Positions 1 to 64,000 of a stretch of DNA of 64,000 bases are shown here, piece by piece (positions within the stretch are counted from its first letter, which is position 1; the number at the start of each line of letters is the position of its first letter). The notes below the pieces were generated by a model, which made no database searches, was not told the DNA's origin, and worked only from the letters and a program-made list of their open reading frames with translations. The DNA lies in NCBI RefSeq assembly GCF_003324165.1, contig NW_025407834.1:652226-716225 (forward strand), read 5' to 3'. The translations under genes and the position numbers were made by a program. This stretch comes from Naegleria lovaniensis. Lineage: Eukaryota > Heterolobosea > Eutetramitea > Acrasida > Naegleriidae.

Positions 1-2198
1 GGTCTTGCTCGAGTCACTGGATTGAATTCACGTGGTCTATTCGGAATTTATGAAGACACTCGAAAGGAATGGTTGATGGCTCTTCATGGTTGCTATCAAT
101 ACAATATGGTTGTCATGACTTGTTACGCTAGTTTGGGTGATGAATCATTGTGTGCTGCCATTAATGAGACAGAGTTGCCTGGAATGCTTGTCAATGAGAA
201 GAATCTTGGTAAAATTGCCAATGTTATTGTTCCACGATGCCCAAGCTTGAAGAATATCGTCTACACCAAGGCCCTCGTTTCCGATGAGAGCGATAAAAAG
301 AAGACAAAGGATGCAGTTGAAGCCCTCGAGAAGAAGGGATTGAAGGTTTTACCTTTTGAGGAAGTTGAACAAATTGGTGAATCTGACTACAAGAGTAATA
401 GTGTCATTCCTGTCAAGGAAGAGCCAACGACTGATTCTCTTGCGTTAATCATGTACACGAGGTATGTATGACGACAATTGATCTGAGTGGTATTAACATC
501 GAAATGCATTTGAACTGAATGTACTTTTAGTGGAACAACTGCTCAACCCAAAGGAGTGATGCGTAAGTTTATATTTTTCATTTCATCACTGAGCTAACAA
601 ATTTCAATTTGACATCTATTGTACTTTACTTCTCATGCCTGTTAATTCTTCATAATAACATGTTAACAGTTTCACACAAGAACATTCTTTCAATCATTGC
701 AGGAGCCGACCAAAAAATTGGAGATGATACAAGCATTGAATACAATTATCTTGCCTATTTACCACTCGGTATGTATGAATTTGAAAACTGAAAATTTTCT
801 TATGAACGAACAATTCTGCTTTGTCTCTGATTAGCTCACATTTTGGAAATGGCTGCTGAGGTATGTACACGGTTTTATATGATAGTTGGAACGCAATAAC
901 TTGTGATTGAACAGCATGTCGTTTTGAAACGTGGTGGAAAAATTGGTTATGGTAATCCAAAGACTTTAAGCGACAAAGGAGCTAAACCAAAGGGTGATAT
1001 TGAAGTCATTGCACCAACTGTTTTAGTTGGTGTTCCAAGAGTTTTTGACACAATCAAGAAGGGTGCTTTTGAGAAAATTAAATCATCTCCTCCATTTGTT
1101 CAATGGCTTTTCCACAATGCCTACAATTACAAATTAGATGCCATTAGACATGGAAGAGAATCCCCAGTATGGAACTTTTTGGTTTTCAACAAATTTAAAA
1201 AGCTTGTAGGAGGTAACTTGGCTTTGATTTTTTCAGGAGGAGCTGCTCTCTCAAAAGAGTCGCACGAGTTTTTACGTGTGTGCATGTCCTGTTCAGTAAT
1301 TCAAGGATATGGCTTGACTGTAAGTTAGACTTTGTATTTAACTTGAATGATATATATAACGTGCTTGACTTATTGAATGAACAGGAAACATCCGCCGGTG
1401 GTACAATTCAATACGGCTACCAACCATTCACCACAAAGAACATTGGATCCCCCATTATTACTTGTCGTAAGTGTTTCTGAACTTGGTCTCACTAACCATG
1501 ATGCATTACTCATCAACTAACCCATTGGTTGTGTTCTGTGAATTATTGACATAGAAATTAAATTAATTTCTGTTCCTGAAATGGGATATACCATCCATGA
1601 CGAGGAACCTCGTGGTGAGCTTGCCATTAAGGGTAATAACATTTCTCTTGGTTACTACAAACAAGACAAACTCACTAAAGAATCGTACACATCTGATGGC
1701 TATTTTCTCACTGGAGACATTGGCATTTTACACAAAGATGGATCTTTCAGTATTGTGGATCGTAAAAAGAATTTGACCAAACTCGCCCATGGTGAATACA
1801 TTGCTCTTGAAAAATTGGAGAGTGTTTATGGCAATTGTCCATTCGTCTCTCCAAATGGAATTATGGTGTATGGTGATTCAGATCGAGATTATCCTGTAGC
1901 TCTCATTTTGGTTCAACCCGGTTATACCAAACAATGGGCTCAAGAACATGGAATTTCAGGAGATTTGACTCAAATCATTAAGGACCCAAGAGTGATCAAG
2001 GCAGTTGCTGCCTCGTTGAAAGAAGAAGCAAAGAAGAATAATCTTCAACGAATGGAAGAAATCAAACATTTTAAATTATTGCTCGACGAGTGGACACCTG
2101 ACAATGAGTTGTTGACTGCCGCCATGAAGCTCAAGCGTGCCAATATTGTGAAACGATACAAGACAGAGATTGAGGAAATGTATGCCACAAGACAATAG
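1..2198 (+). CDS. Long-chain acyl-CoA synthetase (3' part; 5' end outside window)
   Basis: Activates long-chain fatty acids to acyl-CoA through an acyl-adenylate, usually at ER, peroxisome or lipid-droplet membranes (family knowledge). Seven exons fit in phase: 1-461, 531-562, 670-768, 835-860, 915-1319, 1385-1466 and 1555-2198, giving about 582 residues plus an off-window N-terminus (the family is usually 650-700). The AMP-binding P-loop YTSGTTAQPKGVM is rebuilt only when exons 1-3 are joined, which confirms those junctions. Further family motifs are YLPLAHILEMAAE, the adenine-binding GYGLTETSAGG across the exon 5/6 junction, and TGDIGILHKDGSFSIVDRKKN with the hinge and the lysine-rich loop. 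The gene ends about 170 bases before the PDE6D gene. Which ACSL paralogue this is cannot be told. Confidence 0.93.
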
Positions 2199-2370
2199 TT
2201 GTATCACTACCATTGGTTGAATCTTGTGGTCTTGGTATCCTTTCTGTGTGTGCAAATGCATTATGATCATTGTATGTCATGGACTGTTCACGAATGAATA
2301 TTTATAATCATTATTTATTGTATACTTGCAAGTTGTATGAACTTGATCCGAAAATGCCATTCCTTAAAAA

Positions 2371-2968
2371 ATGACCTCACAACATCAACACGCTGTATTG
2401 AAAATGTAAGTGATGATGAGGCAGAGTTGTATATTGATAGAGATAATTTACCTTGATAATGCCTCGGAATTTGGTGACCCATATGATCATGTATTCAAAG
2501 CGAGAAGATGAAAATGGCGTCAAAAAGTAAAATACTTTGGGAGTCGGATTGGTCGGCTGGCCTTCCCTACGACAACAATAAGGGAGAAATTGCAATTAGT
2601 AAGTGATTGATCATGCCCAGCTGCGTCTCATTTTGCATATTCATTTTGAAACACCCTCAGAAATTCCAAAAGAAATATTGAAATGCCAACAAGTGCAGAG
2701 GGAAATTGTGTTTTCGTGCTCTCAACCCCTCAAAAATCTTTCACTTGTTCAGCTTGTAAAGCTCAACGGAAACGACATTGAGAGATGGGATTTTGATTTC
2801 GGTTTTGTTATTCCAAACAGCGTCAACTCTTGGGAGTCGGTGATAGAAGCTGCAAAAGAAGGCACCATTGGTCCTGAAGTATTGTCCGGAAACGTGACCA
2901 TTGACACTGCTTTCTATGATGGTGACAACTTGGTTGCATCAAATCGAGTAAGGGTGTATTATGTTTAA
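2371..2968 (+). CDS. PDE6D: PDE6D-like prenyl-binding protein (delta subunit)
   Basis: A GDI-like solubilising factor that carries prenylated small GTPases and ciliary cargo between membranes (family knowledge). Three exons fit in phase: 2371-2405, 2501-2598 and 2661-2968, giving 146 residues against about 150 in animal PDE6D. Exon 2 supplies ILWESDWSAGL, and exon 3 carries the strongly conserved IPKEILKCQQVQREI, FGFVIPNSVNSWESVIEAA and the C-terminal SNRVRVYYV. The start ATG at 2371 follows an A-rich stretch and gives the expected N-terminal length. The acceptor of exon 2 (after CAAAG at 2500) was chosen because it rebuilds the LKIxxMxM stretch of the family. The protein is predicted to be an immunoglobulin-like beta sandwich. 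Exon 1 is the least certain part. Confidence 0.9.
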
Positions 2969-3029
2969 CGTATTTGTACATTAAAGTTTACGAAAGTACT
3001 GCATTTCATTCTTGTAATTCAATGCAAAT

Positions 3030-4783
<1,754 letters not shown>

Positions 4784-57996: not shown

Positions 57997-58451
57997 GAAT
58001 GTACTTGTTGTTCTACTTGGATTAAAAATCAATGAGGCAAACAATATTGAGAATAACCAAGATCCATGTTTCCATGTCATGCAATGTCTCAGGTTCAAAA
58101 TCATTATTTGTTGTCGTTGTTAGGATTTTTCCACAGAGCTTGTGGTAAATCAGGTCGTTCTCTTATTTGAGGCCAAAAAACAGTTAGTTTCTAAAATCTA
58201 TTGGGAATGAGTTTGTTCCATAGAGTAGGCAGACGAATAGGTATTTAGCCAAAGAAGATCCTAAATCTAAAAGAGCAGGAATTCTAAAAGCCCCTCTTTA
58301 AGATCGGGATTGTTATCCATACCTCACACACACCAACGAAAGTAGTAGAAACTGCATTACATTCACTCCTGTTGGCGGTCGTCAGACTTTTTAGCATAGT
58401 CTTTGAGCTCCACTAGAGCCTTATGGATACCGGAAAGGCTTACCATGATGG

Positions 58452-58556
58452 TTTTTTTTGAGAGTGAAGACATCATCTCATCAAACTCAGTATTATTATA
58501 TATAAAAATTGCAATACTGAGTTTGATGAGATGGAGTCTTCACTCGCAAAAAAAAC
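58452..58556. repeat. Hairpin (MITE-like) repeat, complete copy
   Basis: Two arms of about 43 bases face each other around an AT-rich loop of about 20 bases (58494-58513). The left arm runs from a T8 run through GAGAGTGAAGAC to CATCAAACTCAGTAT; the right arm (58514-58556) is its reverse complement with about three mismatches. Transcribed, it would fold into one long stem. The left arm and loop occur again at 59030-59092. Confidence 0.85.
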
Positions 58557-59029
58557 TGGAGATTTGCTGGTCGATGAGTTGAGTGAGTCTAACACAGAAT
58601 TTGATGGATGTTGTGGAACCATTTTTTTGTTATTGGTGGTTCAAGAGAAACTCTTGAGTTTTTCAAAGCTATTCACTCCCGCTCGTCCGTTGTAGGTCCA
58701 ATTACAATTTTTTAAAGCCTTTGCAAAGCCAGTGATTCCACAGTGAAAAGGAATCTCATTGTAATTTCAGGTTGCAAAACTTTTTTTACTGGTTTTCAGT
58801 AAAGCGGTAAACTGGATTTCCAAACTAGCCATAATGAAACAATGAGACAAATGACGGAGTAAAATTGAGAAGAATTGATTTCAATGATCATTTCAATTAT
58901 CTATTTTATTGAAGTAAAGAATTGTTGAAAGAGGGGTGGAAGAAATCGCCCATCCAAGCACACAGCTAATAATTTGATTGCATCTGGATAGTAATTTCCA
59001 GAGCGTTTTGGAAATGAGGATTTCTTGGG

Positions 59030-59092
59030 TTTTTTTGAAAGTGAAGACATCATCTCATCAAACTCAGTATTATTATATATAAAAATTGCAAT
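59030..59092. repeat. Hairpin repeat, truncated copy (left arm and loop)
   Basis: About 63 bases, nearly identical to 58452-58515 in direct orientation (one clear mismatch, GAAAG for GAGAG). Identity stops right after TTGCAATA in the loop. The right arm is missing; within five bases the transposon terminal repeat begins. This suggests that the transposon inserted into the repeat. Confidence 0.85.
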
Positions 59093-59097
59093 ATCAC

Positions 59098-59152
59098 CAC
59101 AAACTACGCCTGAGCGTAAAGTGCAAAAACTGACGAAGAAAAAATTCGGCTC
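59098..59152 (+). repeat. Left terminal inverted repeat
   Basis: Starts CACAAACTACGCC and continues imperfectly to ATTCGGCTC. It pairs with 63956-64000. The outer 13 bases are identical; the inner part needs a gap of about 10 bases. Confidence 0.8.
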
Positions 59153-59251
59153 GTTTTAGTAAGTCCCGGAGTCAAAAAAAATGGAGTGATTGGTCTGTGG
59201 TGTTGTTTTCTGCTTCTCACACAAAAAAACACACCAACAACACACAACAAC

Positions 59252-60415
59252 ATGGAAGCTGAATTAGTGGTCATTGAAGAGGGTACTGTGCCTCTATACT
59301 GTGTAAGTAATTGATTATCCATATTACCACAACAACAACAACATCAAACAACAATTTCAACACCGACACTAATCTTTACCTCAGCTTGGTGTTTCTGATT
59401 GTGATTCGAGTTGCGAAACAAATAGTAATCACGTAAGTACTAGTGAATATCGTTCACCTTGTATTGATCTCAATTATATCAAGGCCTATGAATCACCAGC
59501 ATTGGATAGCCAATCCACAACGAACCAGAGTACGAACAATGTAAGTATTATGTTTGTCCATTATTCAGTAGTAACACATTTCAAGATTCCTTCATCATCA
59601 AGCATCGAGATGAACACTTCTCAGCCATCATCACCAGTAATAACTACTACCTCTACAGTATGTTTCAAATTTGTTGCAATGTGTTTGCTTAACTTGTTCA
59701 GGAATGGATCTTCACAGACGAAACTATGTCATTTCCACCTTGCTGTCTATTGCCTAGCACAAGCAGCTTCTCTGGTATTGTTGATGAGACACAATGTACG
59801 ATAACACCAAACAACAAATGTGATGATGACAATATTTCCCAACAGAGCAAAAAACGAAAATCAAGAACCACAGATGAAGCTGCTGAAGACACTCACAAGG
59901 AATATCAATTCACTTTAGAGAAAGGACTGTTTGAATTTGTACCAAAATATAATTCCTTTAAAGAAGTACCAGATGAGAAGAAACAAATTTATGGAATTAT
60001 ATGGGAACAGTTCGCCAAATGTGCAAGAAATATTATTTATCAACATCTACAGATGAGATGTTCAAACTCCATCAGCCATGAAACGGTTGGATGTTGCAAC
60101 CCAAACGTGTTTTATCTTGCTCTGAGGGGAACAAAGGCTAAATATTACCAATGGTATCAAGACATTTTGTGGAATGGCCTAAAGAAGAGACAGAAGTGCA
60201 TTCAATTCAGATTTACTGACAGTGTTCCTCCTTTAGACAAATGCAAGCATTGGTCTGAGTTGGAAATTACTCACTCACGTCTTACACGTAAATTCGGAAA
60301 GAAGATTACGAAACACAAGATGAAAATTGTATACATTTCTCTCACATGTAATGTGGAAACTAATCAAGTGTGGACATCGTTCAAGTTTGACAAAGAATTC
60401 GAGTTTGTACAATAA
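59252..60415 (+). CDS. Transposon-borne protein of unknown function
   Basis: Five exons close in phase: 59252-59302, 59385-59432, 59484-59540, 59586-59657 and 59702-60415, giving 313 residues. Four small exons of 48-72 bases precede one long exon; each has a standard GTAAGT or GTATGT donor. The N-terminus is acidic and Ser/Thr-rich, then a basic QQSKKRKSRTTDE stretch that could be a nuclear signal, and a globular part with LFEFVPKYNSFKEVPDEKK, IIWEQFAKCARNIIYQHL, YYQWYQDILWNGLKKRQK and SRLTRKFGKKITKHKMK. Aromatic and basic residues suggest nucleic-acid binding. No family was recognised. It ends 41 bases before the next ATG, both lying inside the TIRs, so it is probably an accessory factor of the element. 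Confidence 0.65.
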
Positions 60416-60455
60416 AACAATTGAATTCAATCCTCAATACTCTAAATCACAAAAA

Positions 60456-63400
60456 ATGTCATCAAATTGGAACTTTTCATCACCATCCACAAACCAAACC
60501 ACATCTAACAACAACTTTTTTGAAGGTCAATCATATGGACTTTCAAATCAAAATCACCACATATGGTGTTCCTCTCCATTATCTTCTTTCAATGTGCAAT
60601 CATCGTCATCTACTGGTTTCAGTAGCATTAATCCGGGATCTTTTCAATTTGATTCACCAAGAACATCCACACTATCTTTCGAAAGAATTTATGAAGATCT
60701 AATACAACCAAACCAATCCAATTCAATGAGCTATCAGAATATCCCTATTCAATATGGAGGATGTGAACATTTATTTCAAAATCATCAATCCTATTATCCA
60801 CAATTCAATCAGCAATACATCACACAATCTTCTCATAATTTCTCCACAACCCAACATAACCTTGACAATCCGAACACATTATCATCTCAACCTTCACAAC
60901 ATGAAACCAATCAATCAAACCAACATTCAAACACACAACAAAATACAACAATTACTTTTGTCGATGGCTTCACTCGCATAAAACAAAAGCGAGGAAGACC
61001 ACCGAGCACAGAAAACAAATTGAAAAATATTATTGATAATGCTGATCTCAATTTCTCTCAGTATAAGCTCCAAGGAGATGCTGTTATTAAATTAAAGAAC
61101 AAGAGTTTTGCGATATGTAACTCATTACATTTTAATATTGCAAATCCATCTATTGACAAGATGCAGAAAGAATTTCATCAATTCGAAAAAGAGACGAAAT
61201 CTAATGGGAAGTTGTTGTTGACATGTAAAAAAGGCAGTGAAAAAACAACCAAAAGTATGATTGAACAAGACAAATCTCAATATACAAAAAGCAAGCTCGG
61301 ATCATTACTTTGCGGAATCGAACTTTTGCTGTATAATAATGGAATTTCAAATTTCTCTGAATTTTTCGATCTATTGATTGACATGTTTCCCGATATTGTT
61401 TATCGAACATTAAGCAAACGAAAGGATTATGATGACATTGACACGAAAGTTCGAAAATTAGTCACAAACAAAAAAATACCAGAATATGACTCATATATCG
61501 AAATGTATCTAAACAAACAAGAAAAAACAAACCCTATTGCCATTAATGATTACCCAAATGATCTCGATGATCCTGTTTCATCTGAAATTAGTTCTGAAAT
61601 CGATGAAAATTTTGATGAATATGAAGAACATCAATCAAGTGAAGCAATTAATGAAACAACATCAACAATCTCACAAGAAGAACCTGTAAGCAGTAGTGTA
61701 GCTCTACAAACAAGCTCAAATGACGATGATGAAATGGATTGGGAGGACGATGATTATTCGCAAAGTGATGCTTCTTCATCGAGTGAAGAGACAAATCAAA
61801 GAAAAAAAGTGACAAAACGAAAGTTGCGAGTAGTACGGAAAAAGTTACTTGATATCCAAGCGAAAGACAAAGCCAAAATCAGTAACACTCAATATAAGGA
61901 ACTGGTGTCATCTTCAAGCTCCAAAACCACTCCTCTCTCAAGTATGTCATCAGTTCAATCTGTAGTTAGTATTAAGGCCTTAATTGAATTTAAAGGGACA
62001 CATGAGAAGAATGAAAATATTTTTTTCATCAGCCTTTATTCTTTAGTTAAATATATGATTGAATTATATGTACAATGGGTAAAACAAATATCAACAGACA
62101 AGGAATTAGCTGCTCATCTCAACGAAGAGGATAAAAATTGGAAAACAAAAATTAAGTGGTTCAAACTCAATCTCGATGGATCTAAAGGCCGTGTTACATT
62201 CGCATGCGCTCCATTAAATATGAAAAATTTTGGGAGTCCTCAATCAAGAGAAGCAGTCCATCCTGTGGCTGTTTGGAAGGGAAAAGAAAATCAACTTCGA
62301 GCAATAACTGGAATTATTCGAGTAATGATTGAATCGATGACATGTCATGGGGTGGATGTTGATGGAGTAAATCACAAGGTGGATTTTTGTGTCACAACAG
62401 ATCTTCTTTCGTTAAAGCGTATCTCTAATCTTAAATTTTCACAAATGTGTCCATATTGCAATACATTGAATACTTTTTGTGACCATTTTCACCTCGCTAG
62501 AAGCAAAGAACAGTTGGGTTGTCTGCTCGGAGTTAGTCCATTCAAAATTGTCATCTGTTTGCTCCATATGAAAGAACGAATAATGGAAAGAATATTAATT
62601 GATGCAATAATGACGAGCAACAAACGAGAAACTATTGTCAGGATCATTCGCAAGATTCCAAATCTCAATAATTTCAAAATAACTGAGAAAGGACAAAAGT
62701 TGAAGTGTTACTTAACCGGAAAACAAGTTAATTCCATTTTAAGCAATTTGAGAAGATTACGTAAGGTAATCGTTCCTCAATATATCACATTAATGAGCAA
62801 ATTTAGAAATGTGTTGAAATTACTTCAAAATGAATCCTTTTCTGAATCCGAACTTAATAACCTTCAACTCAAGCTAAATGAGATGGAAGAAGTGGTTCAA
62901 TCTCTTTATACTGATAGTGGTTCTCAAAGTTGGTATATGCATATTCTATTCCATCATGTAATTCCTTTAATCAAAGTATACGGAAATTTGGTTCACTTTG
63001 AAACACAGGGATTCGAAGGAGCACACATTGATGATGAAAGGCGTATGAAAAACACATCCAACAATGGAGGAAAGTATAATTATTTGGACAGAATGTTTCC
63101 GACATGTAAAGATCAAAGTTTGATCCAGTTCATGCTTCCGAAAATTAGGAGACTCATGGTATGTAGAGATTTGAAAATTCCCTTTCAAAACAGGCAACGA
63201 AACAATGAGAAGTACAAGCAATTTCTTGCAATACCCTACCCGATCTTCTCATTCCAAGAGGAAAATGTTGCCTTGTTGTCTTTTGTACCAGGGAAATCTC
63301 TCTCCGAAGTGTGTACCCGATGCGAAGATCACGAAGAACATGAAATAACCTCCAAATATGATCCAATTTCAAACGTTCAATATGGCAAGGACAATGCAAA

Positions 63401-63458
63401 TGACAACGACGATGAAAGCGATGCCATGAACATGTTTTCCCAAAGTTGTGATGTGTAA
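60456..63458 (+). CDS. Transposase-like protein, DDE-type candidate
   Basis: A single exon of 1000 residues. Residues 1-160 are Asn/Gln/Ser-rich; an AT-hook-like KQKRGRPPS lies near residue 179; an acidic linker follows (about 370-460), then a basic RKKVTKRKLRVVRKK. The candidate catalytic region has LNLDGSKGRVTF (Asp574), HPVAVWKGKENQ, VTTDLLSLKRISNLKF (Asp649), CPYC (Cys665, Cys668) and HFETQGFEGAH (Glu849 or Glu854). The order D-G, plain-lysine-glycine-K-E, D-L-x-x-L-x-x-I, CPxC, then a late E-H stretch matches uncharacterised eukaryotic transposon proteins I have seen in databases, among them KDZ-related groups. The ATG at 60456 follows six As. Together with flanking TIRs this should be the element's transposase. 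Confidence 0.65.
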   Translation: MSSNWNFSSPSTNQTTSNNNFFEGQSYGLSNQNHHIWCSSPLSSFNVQSSSSTGFSSINPGSFQFDSPRTSTLSFERIYEDLIQPNQSNSMSYQNIPIQYGGCEHLFQNHQSYYPQFNQQYITQSSHNFSTTQHNLDNPNTLSSQPSQHETNQSNQHSNTQQNTTITFVDGFTRIKQKRGRPPSTENKLKNIIDNADLNFSQYKLQGDAVIKLKNKSFAICNSLHFNIANPSIDKMQKEFHQFEKETKSNGKLLLTCKKGSEKTTKSMIEQDKSQYTKSKLGSLLCGIELLLYNNGISNFSEFFDLLIDMFPDIVYRTLSKRKDYDDIDTKVRKLVTNKKIPEYDSYIEMYLNKQEKTNPIAINDYPNDLDDPVSSEISSEIDENFDEYEEHQSSEAINETTSTISQEEPVSSSVALQTSSNDDDEMDWEDDDYSQSDASSSSEETNQRKKVTKRKLRVVRKKLLDIQAKDKAKISNTQYKELVSSSSSKTTPLSSMSSVQSVVSIKALIEFKGTHEKNENIFFISLYSLVKYMIELYVQWVKQISTDKELAAHLNEEDKNWKTKIKWFKLNLDGSKGRVTFACAPLNMKNFGSPQSREAVHPVAVWKGKENQLRAITGIIRVMIESMTCHGVDVDGVNHKVDFCVTTDLLSLKRISNLKFSQMCPYCNTLNTFCDHFHLARSKEQLGCLLGVSPFKIVICLLHMKERIMERILIDAIMTSNKRETIVRIIRKIPNLNNFKITEKGQKLKCYLTGKQVNSILSNLRRLRKVIVPQYITLMSKFRNVLKLLQNESFSESELNNLQLKLNEMEEVVQSLYTDSGSQSWYMHILFHHVIPLIKVYGNLVHFETQGFEGAHIDDERRMKNTSNNGGKYNYLDRMFPTCKDQSLIQFMLPKIRRLMVCRDLKIPFQNRQRNNEKYKQFLAIPYPIFSFQEENVALLSFVPGKSLSEVCTRCEDHEEHEITSKYDPISNVQYGKDNANDNDDESDAMNMFSQSCDV

Positions 63459-63655
63459 TAAATTTTTTGTTAAAAATTAAATTAAATTTTTTACTTTTTG
63501 TTGTAATTTAATTTTTCAAGTTGACATCGATTTTCACTCGAAAAAAAATGCCTTCACCTAAAGATGAGGTCGAGTATTTTAAATCACACACCTAAACTAA
63601 GATGACACAGCAACTTTGATGTAACTTAGACACCAAGTGATCAGTACAACAAAAG

Positions 63656-63883
63656 ATGGATTTTTATCGTGTAACGAGAAACTTGTTGAACGGAGTAATT
63701 ACTGTGAATGTGAGTATTATCACCAACAATCAACTAATCCTTGTATAGGACAGTTCTTCTGTGGGAAGAGAACGAGAGATGAGCGCTGAAGAGAATTGCT
63801 TTCGAAACTTTAGTAACTGGCTTTGTACAATAGGTGTGGTCTTAATCAGGAGGACACTTTTAATGAACGAACGTCAGCACTGA
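63656..63883 (+). CDS. Possible small third gene of the transposon
   Basis: Two exons, 63656-63709 and 63749-63883, joined in phase 0, would give 62 residues: MDFYRVTRNLLNGVITVN, then an acidic middle and a basic C-terminus with LIRRTLLMNERQH. The 39-base intron has GTGAGT and TATAG ends but is short. An AATAAA lies right after the stop. It is supported only by splice-like sites and the polyadenylation-like signal; it could equally be a non-coding subterminal region. Confidence 0.3.
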
Positions 63884-63955
63884 ATAAAACTTTACAAGAT
63901 TCTGAACCAATCCCGGAGTTTCTGCATTTCGTTGTCAAAAAATTTTTGCCTTTTT

Positions 63956-64000
63956 GAGTCGAATTTTTTCGCTGGCAGTTTTCTTATGGCGTAGTTTGTG
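63956..64000 (-). repeat. Right terminal inverted repeat (runs to the window edge)
   Basis: Read on the minus strand from 64000 it begins CACAAACTACGCC and continues with AAAACTG and GCGAAAAAATTCGACTC, the inverted counterpart of 59098-59152. The match reaches the last base, so a few terminal bases probably lie outside the window. Confidence 0.8.

Follow-up and report, generated by a model that had tools for sequence, protein, structure and literature searches.

We identified a family of DNA transposons, F1, in the N. lovaniensis genome (30.69 Mb, 97 contigs), one copy of which ends the stretch of DNA analyzed here, the last 64 kb of contig C13 (the window). The F1 element is mobile, deleted relatives that have lost most of the transposase gene have spread too, and one insertion (in contig C11) joined its target without gain or loss of bases. 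We consider it likely that F1 represents a cut-and-paste family in which a DDE-type transposase of about 1000 amino acids, related to the CMCT clade, is combined with an upstream accessory protein and with unstaggered, or nearly unstaggered, integration. According to the accessible text of PMC12730594, the CMCT clade comprises EnSpm/CACTA, Mirage, Chapaev, Transib, Plavaka, ESTA, Lanisha and RAG1; its transposases carry C(2)C and H(3-4)H between the second D and the E, its elements have 5'-CA..TG-3' ends, and its target-site duplications measure 2-5 bp.

A first-pass annotation of the window had proposed that 13 bases at 59098 are matched in inverted orientation by the last 13 bases, with similarity extending inward. 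Both sites are present: the 13-mer CACAAACTACGCC lies at 59098 and recurs as its reverse complement at 63988-64000, and the similarity continues inward over 27 nt at 81% (59126-59152 and 63956-63982). Exact matches to the 13-mer number 45 across the 30.69-Mb genome, with none for a reversed-pattern control. When two mismatches were allowed genome-wide, 368 matches compared with 890 in the reversed control; as the excess was lost, our counts are based on exact matches. Every exact terminus that we read, bar the right end of the window, has CAC before and GTG after the 13-mer. The inverted repeat is therefore real, but its terminus is 16 bp, CACCACAAACTACGCC, rather than 13, and the element starts at 59095 rather than 59098. 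The idea that CAC/GTG belongs to the target was rejected: these bases are absent from the empty site of a nested copy, and we accordingly assign them to the element. Since the contig ends there, the window copy is without its final three bases (GTG) and measures 4906 bp, compared with 4909 bp in complete copies. The features of the window copy are listed in Table 1.

Outside the element, the window contains a palindrome (58451-58556) with 44-nt arms, 93% complementary, around an 18-nt loop and may be a small inverted-repeat element. One arm plus the loop recurs at 97% identity at 59026-59093, ending one base before the transposon.

Table 1 Features of the F1 copy in the window.
Feature	Position	Strand	Basis
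Autonomous transposon copy, family F1	59095..64000	+	Boundaries from copies with unrelated flanks
Left terminal inverted repeat, CACCACAAACTACGCC	59095..59110	+	Comparison of copies
ORF1 accessory gene, 313 aa	59252..60415	+	GT..AG splice model in frame
ORF1 predicted exons	59252-59302, 59385-59432, 59484-59540, 59586-59657, 59702-60415	+	Four predicted introns
Transposase, 1000 aa, ATG at 60456	60456..63458	+	Nine open copies; no intron needed
AT-hook core RGRP, transposase N-terminal region	60990..61001	+	Direct sequence reading
Proposed catalytic Asp 1, within LNLDG (position 573 in the 999-aa query, 574 in the full-length protein)	62175..62177	+	Alignments
Proposed catalytic Asp 2, within TTDLLSL (query position 648)	62400..62402	+	Alignments
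CPYC, the C(2)C motif, 16 residues past Asp 2	62448..62459	+	Both Cys invariant in 8/8 proteins
HILFHH, the H(3-4)H motif	62940..62957	+	First His and His +5 invariant in 8/8
Proposed catalytic Glu, within TQGFEGAH (query position 853)	63015..63017	+	Invariant in 8/8
Possible third small gene, predicted, 62 aa	63656..63883	+	Exons 63656-63709 and 63749-63883; GT..AG model in frame
Right terminal inverted repeat, 13 of 16 bases	63988..64000	-	Contig end cuts the rest

The F1 transposase gene occurs in nine genomic copies at 99-100% identity, all without stops, and nine F1 copies are full or nearly full (4909 bp when complete). Comparison of six complete copies with the window copy showed four without any difference over 4906 bp and two that differ from it at 10 and 22 positions; the copy at C14 is missing its right end. 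We also identified 13 internally deleted copies of about 2.46-2.48 kb, one with a foreign insert and one with a nested full copy. Ten of these, compared in detail, measure 2461-2484 bp and fall into three sequence classes. They are without roughly positions 2016-4393 of the full element, retain both ends and occupy different places, and we therefore class them as non-autonomous derivatives of a slightly diverged sister. The spliced ORF1 is intact in all four deleted copies tested (L044, L045, L046 and L034). When three deleted copies were aligned with full F1, positions 701-1300 showed 0, 0 and 3 mismatches, and other blocks showed 0-5 mismatches per 100 plus indels; gene conversion is the simplest reading of this near-identity. 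The call of a DNA transposon thus holds, given the many copies at unrelated sites, the fixed inverted termini, the deleted derivatives and one nested insertion, together with a genome search by terminus and protein (45 exact terminus matches, nine transposase-gene copies). The F1 family is young or recently active, with several open copies.

One copy, L043 on contig C18, is bordered by C46-like sequence at one end and by the window's left flank at the other, and C46 (L087) carries unrelated sequence from the junction onward relative to C18. Either the assembly was joined across the repeat here, or two copies underwent a genuine rearrangement. That the family as a whole is an assembly artefact, a repeat collapsed at contig ends, is scarcely credible: the window copy does lie at a contig end and C18 does join two different flanks around one copy, but other copies lie inside long contigs, both flanks could be read at 30 insertion sites, and the assembly keeps the three classes of deleted copies apart.

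The element had been described as carrying three genes. Two are conserved, the transposase, whose length of 1000 residues was confirmed, and ORF1, with four predicted introns; the third, of 62 amino acids, is a prediction only. ORF1 gave no Pfam match above cut-off over the 229 residues scanned. It has homologues at the same place in two sister families, F2 and F3, which share the F1 layout of CAC..GTG ends, an upstream accessory protein and a transposase of about 950 residues, so that the order of ORF1 followed by transposase is the same in all three. The F1-F3 ORF1 proteins are about 21% identical where aligned and have FAxxA, GC and PxL motifs in common. An AT-hook had also been noted; RGRP is indeed present in the F1 transposase but absent from the F2 and F3 proteins.

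The boundaries of F2 and F3 were defined by copy comparison. F2 is 4036 bp long, with ends CACTACAACTTAC whose terminus begins CACTA; its copies are at C6, C8 and C11, with a damaged fourth at C16. F3 spans about 5 kb, with ends CACAACAATTTA, and has copies at C13, C36, C46 and C72, a partial one at C86, and four miniature copies of 160-161 bp. Taken alone, the short terminus patterns are weak evidence, with 10 matches for F2 (7 in the reversed control) and 29 for F3 (9 in the reversed control). Sixteen of the 29 F3 places come from four full and four miniature copies, and the other 13 (including L077-L081) were unused. In their CA..TG termini the families read CACCACAAAC (F1), CACTACAACT (F2) and CACAACAATT (F3). 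En/Spm-like subterminal repeats were sought in all three, and we found only simple CAACAA-type or AT-rich words in F1 and F3 and none in F2. At L059, an F2 copy lies inside the terminus of an F1-type copy, with bases altered on the right side of F2. Three further in-genome families were considered. F4 (L068, L069 and L070) is a separate repeat with the right end CCCGCTTCTTATTC; in two copies its 791-codon frame scores 30.2 bits, above the Pfam cut-off for Transposase_21. F6 and F7 (L071 and L072) are transposase-related open frames of 765 and 805 codons; termini were sought around both and none was recognized, and they are possibly old or domesticated copies.

Homologues of the F1 transposase were found in F2, F3, F6, F7 and N. 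gruberi, whose predicted protein is 39% identical to it. Protein database searches, each scoring the roughly 8000 candidates that shared most words, returned the F1 protein, a single N. gruberi protein, a fragment and nothing else, and a scan of viral contigs revealed no relative. We aligned eight proteins: F1, F2, two F3 members, F6, F7, the N. gruberi protein and the fragment, which begins at CxxC. Both proposed catalytic Asp residues align in the seven proteins that cover them, the first within LNLDG, MSMDG or VID and the second within xDL. CxxC follows 16-17 residues beyond Asp 2, then LHxxxR and YxHIxxxH, and the Glu lies 20 residues past the second His. The order D, D, CPYC, E read earlier in the F1 protein is thus present and conserved in its relatives. 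RAG1 has the same motif order and the same 20-residue step from second His to Glu. A DDE transposase had been proposed as well, and the motifs, conserved in eight proteins (both Asp in seven), speak for it, whereas the AlphaFold model, built from three sequences, reached a pLDDT of only 44.

HHalign of an F1-F3 profile against F7 gave a probability of 98.7% (E 2.9e-16), and against F4, the in-genome Transposase_21-positive protein, no similarity. Among the matches listed, nothing in Pfam or NCBIfam exceeded a curated cut-off for the F1 protein and its relatives. PDB sequence searches with these proteins returned nothing below E 0.67, and the eight-protein profile recovered no solved RAG1 or Transib chain at E up to 10, a difference from Transib/RAG1. 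Transposase_21 had no match in F1 or F2 and matched two F3 proteins at 13.9 and 15.9 bits (E 0.0079 and 0.031; cut-off 28.6), so that none of the three families reaches the curated cut-off, in which they differ from the CMCT clade. Even so, the listed Pfam matches (E up to 5 or 10) included no other transposase family. By linear interpolation on the Transposase_21 profile, Asp 2 falls at 129-133 and the first Cys at 144-150 in F3, and at 124 and 144 in F4, which is above cut-off. Besides these two F3 matches, the best Pfam match short of a cut-off was that of the unrelated DUF5807 (E 0.001), which lies outside the catalytic portion of the N. gruberi protein.

The elements of F1-F3 resemble the CMCT clade in the C(2)C / H(3-4)H feature, present as Hx4H in all eight proteins, and in the 5'-CA..TG-3' termini of all three families. 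These motifs could instead be convergent, in a superfamily unrelated to CMCT, and the lack of a significant profile or PDB match, of an hhalign match to F4 and of a duplication would all fit such an origin. We think it improbable, since D, D, C(2)C, H(4)H and E occur jointly and in order, the ends are CA..TG, and Transposase_21 is the sole transposase family among the Pfam matches listed. The transposase is thus likely to be related to CMCT, judging from its sequence. The first-pass annotation had matched the element to no named superfamily; no database match above cut-off was indeed found, but a relative, EnSpm/CACTA-Transib-RAG (CMCT), can be proposed.

We then analyzed the target sites. At C11, a full F1 copy is nested in a short F1 copy, providing the one F1 empty site found. 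Removing its 4909 bp restores 2461 bp identical to all three copies of the same class, with 0 bp gained or lost. For the other 30 of our 31 insertions, the joined flanks were searched in the genome, and 40 of 61 candidates were scored. An F3 copy at C72 differs from an empty paralogue at C10 by +1 bp (an extra C), and the filled F3 site at C13 differs from an empty paralogue at C68 by -7 bp, with other differences also present in both comparisons. The 31 insertions, whose flank pairs were chosen for exact termini, do not include the window copy, the F3 copy at the C86 contig end, or the C14 tandem and C16 copy, which were left out because one side is altered or lost. L043 was then dropped, leaving 30, because its flanks appear to come from different loci.

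Across the 30 insertions, flank identity of 1, 2, 3, 4 and 5 bp was observed at 12, 5, 1, 0 and 1 sites, compared with 7.8, 2.4, 0.85, 0.25 and 0.1 expected. The 1-bp class had P 0.057 (13/31 with L043, P 0.036) and the 2-bp class P 0.07 (5/31 with L043). A shared flank of any length from 2 to 8 bp occurred at 6/30 sites against 3.6 expected (P 0.12), with no significant excess. At 31 sites, a 5-bp match was seen once (L047) and an 8-bp match never. As a positive control, we recovered the 8-bp duplication CCAACAAC of a 3411-bp element inside copy L032, showing that duplications are visible in this assembly. That unrelated element (positions 645-4055 of L032) has CAGGGAGGGTGAGCC ends (CAGGG) and a 1038-codon open frame, and from its ends and duplication we take it to be hAT-like. 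The fixed duplication length looked for in the F1-F3 insertions was therefore not found at the 30 sites. The regular 2-5 bp CMCT duplication is absent, and the rule may be exactly 0 or 0-1 bp. No strong target sequence was apparent in the F1 flanks, palindromic targets showed no significant excess, and an AAA|TTT context occurred at 0/20 F1 sites and 0/11 other sites. In the small sample of eight F3 sites, T before and A after the joint were favored (69% T over 16 outward-read flanks).

These data bear on two other accounts of the insertion sites. An ordinary EnSpm/CACTA element whose 2-3 bp duplication is masked by decay or by the choice of boundary would explain the CAC..GTG and CACTA ends, and the 2-bp flank sharing (5/30 against 2.4, P 0.07) and the +1 bp at one F3 site lean the same way. 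It is nevertheless very unlikely: four of the six complete copies compared show no difference from the window copy, which is hard to reconcile with decay, only 1/30 sites has a 3-bp match, and the nested insertion restores the exact uninserted sequence. Alternatively, host repair, and not a fixed geometry of the transposase, might finish one or both target joins, leaving duplications of 0-1 bp and small deletions. The empty-site values of 0, +1 and -7 bp and the slight excess of 1-bp flank identity agree with such variable end-joining, but the +1 and -7 cases come from diverged paralogues with nearby differences, and the 30 pairs contain no eroded termini, although they were selected for exact termini. 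We regard variable end-joining as somewhat unlikely and favor (near-)unstaggered integration.

Known systems differ from this pattern in various ways. Transib and RAG1 produce a 5-bp duplication, and here a 5-bp flank match was present at only 1/31 sites. The 8-bp duplication of hAT and KDZ-Zisupton elements was matched at 0/31. The CMCT clade itself has 2-5 bp, compared with 0 at the F1 empty site and +1 and -7 at the F3 sites; as this feature was tested and not found, we describe a CMCT-like lineage rather than EnSpm. Spy, of the PHIS group, is a DDE element without target-site duplication that inserts between AAA and TTT, as far as the accessible parts of PMC4482050 and PMC11304231 describe it. 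F1 resembles it as a DDE-type cut-and-paste element without duplication (0 bp at the nested F1 site; one F3 site differs by +1), but Spy belongs to another superfamily, its AAA|TTT context occurs at 0/31 sites here, and F1-F3 elements carry a second gene. In the accessible portions of the literature, Spy was the only eukaryotic DDE precedent without duplication, and the best precedent, that we found. No CACTA/EnSpm/Transib-type element without duplication was reported in the literature searched, which lay outside Repbase Reports and most subscription papers. Table 3 of the N. lovaniensis genome paper counts 38 'CMC-EnSpm' copies, which may include F1-F3 or F4; they bear the same superfamily label and, in the accessible text, are tallied without element structure, termini or duplication (PMC6125883).

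We propose that the transposase would bind the element ends and excise the element, and that it could move the deleted copies in trans. Both 3' ends would be joined to target phosphates directly opposite each other or 0-1 nt apart, leaving no gap to fill and hence no 2-5 bp duplication. The ORF1 accessory protein would probably help in end binding or assembly. More tentatively, and with slightly less than even confidence, we suggest that a lineage of the CACTA/RAG group gave up the staggered cut, with no need for a fixed target sequence and possibly aided by the conserved ORF1 protein.

The length of the duplication serves to define transposon superfamilies and mirrors the fixed spacing at which the two active sites sit on target DNA. 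Several open copies in a young family make the join amenable to experimental test. Members of such a lineage would be easily missed by tools that require duplications. If a lineage with RAG/CACTA motifs indeed integrates without duplication, active-site spacing can change within the group, and F1 would be, as far as the literature searched shows, the first unstaggered integrator in the group ancestral to V(D)J recombination.
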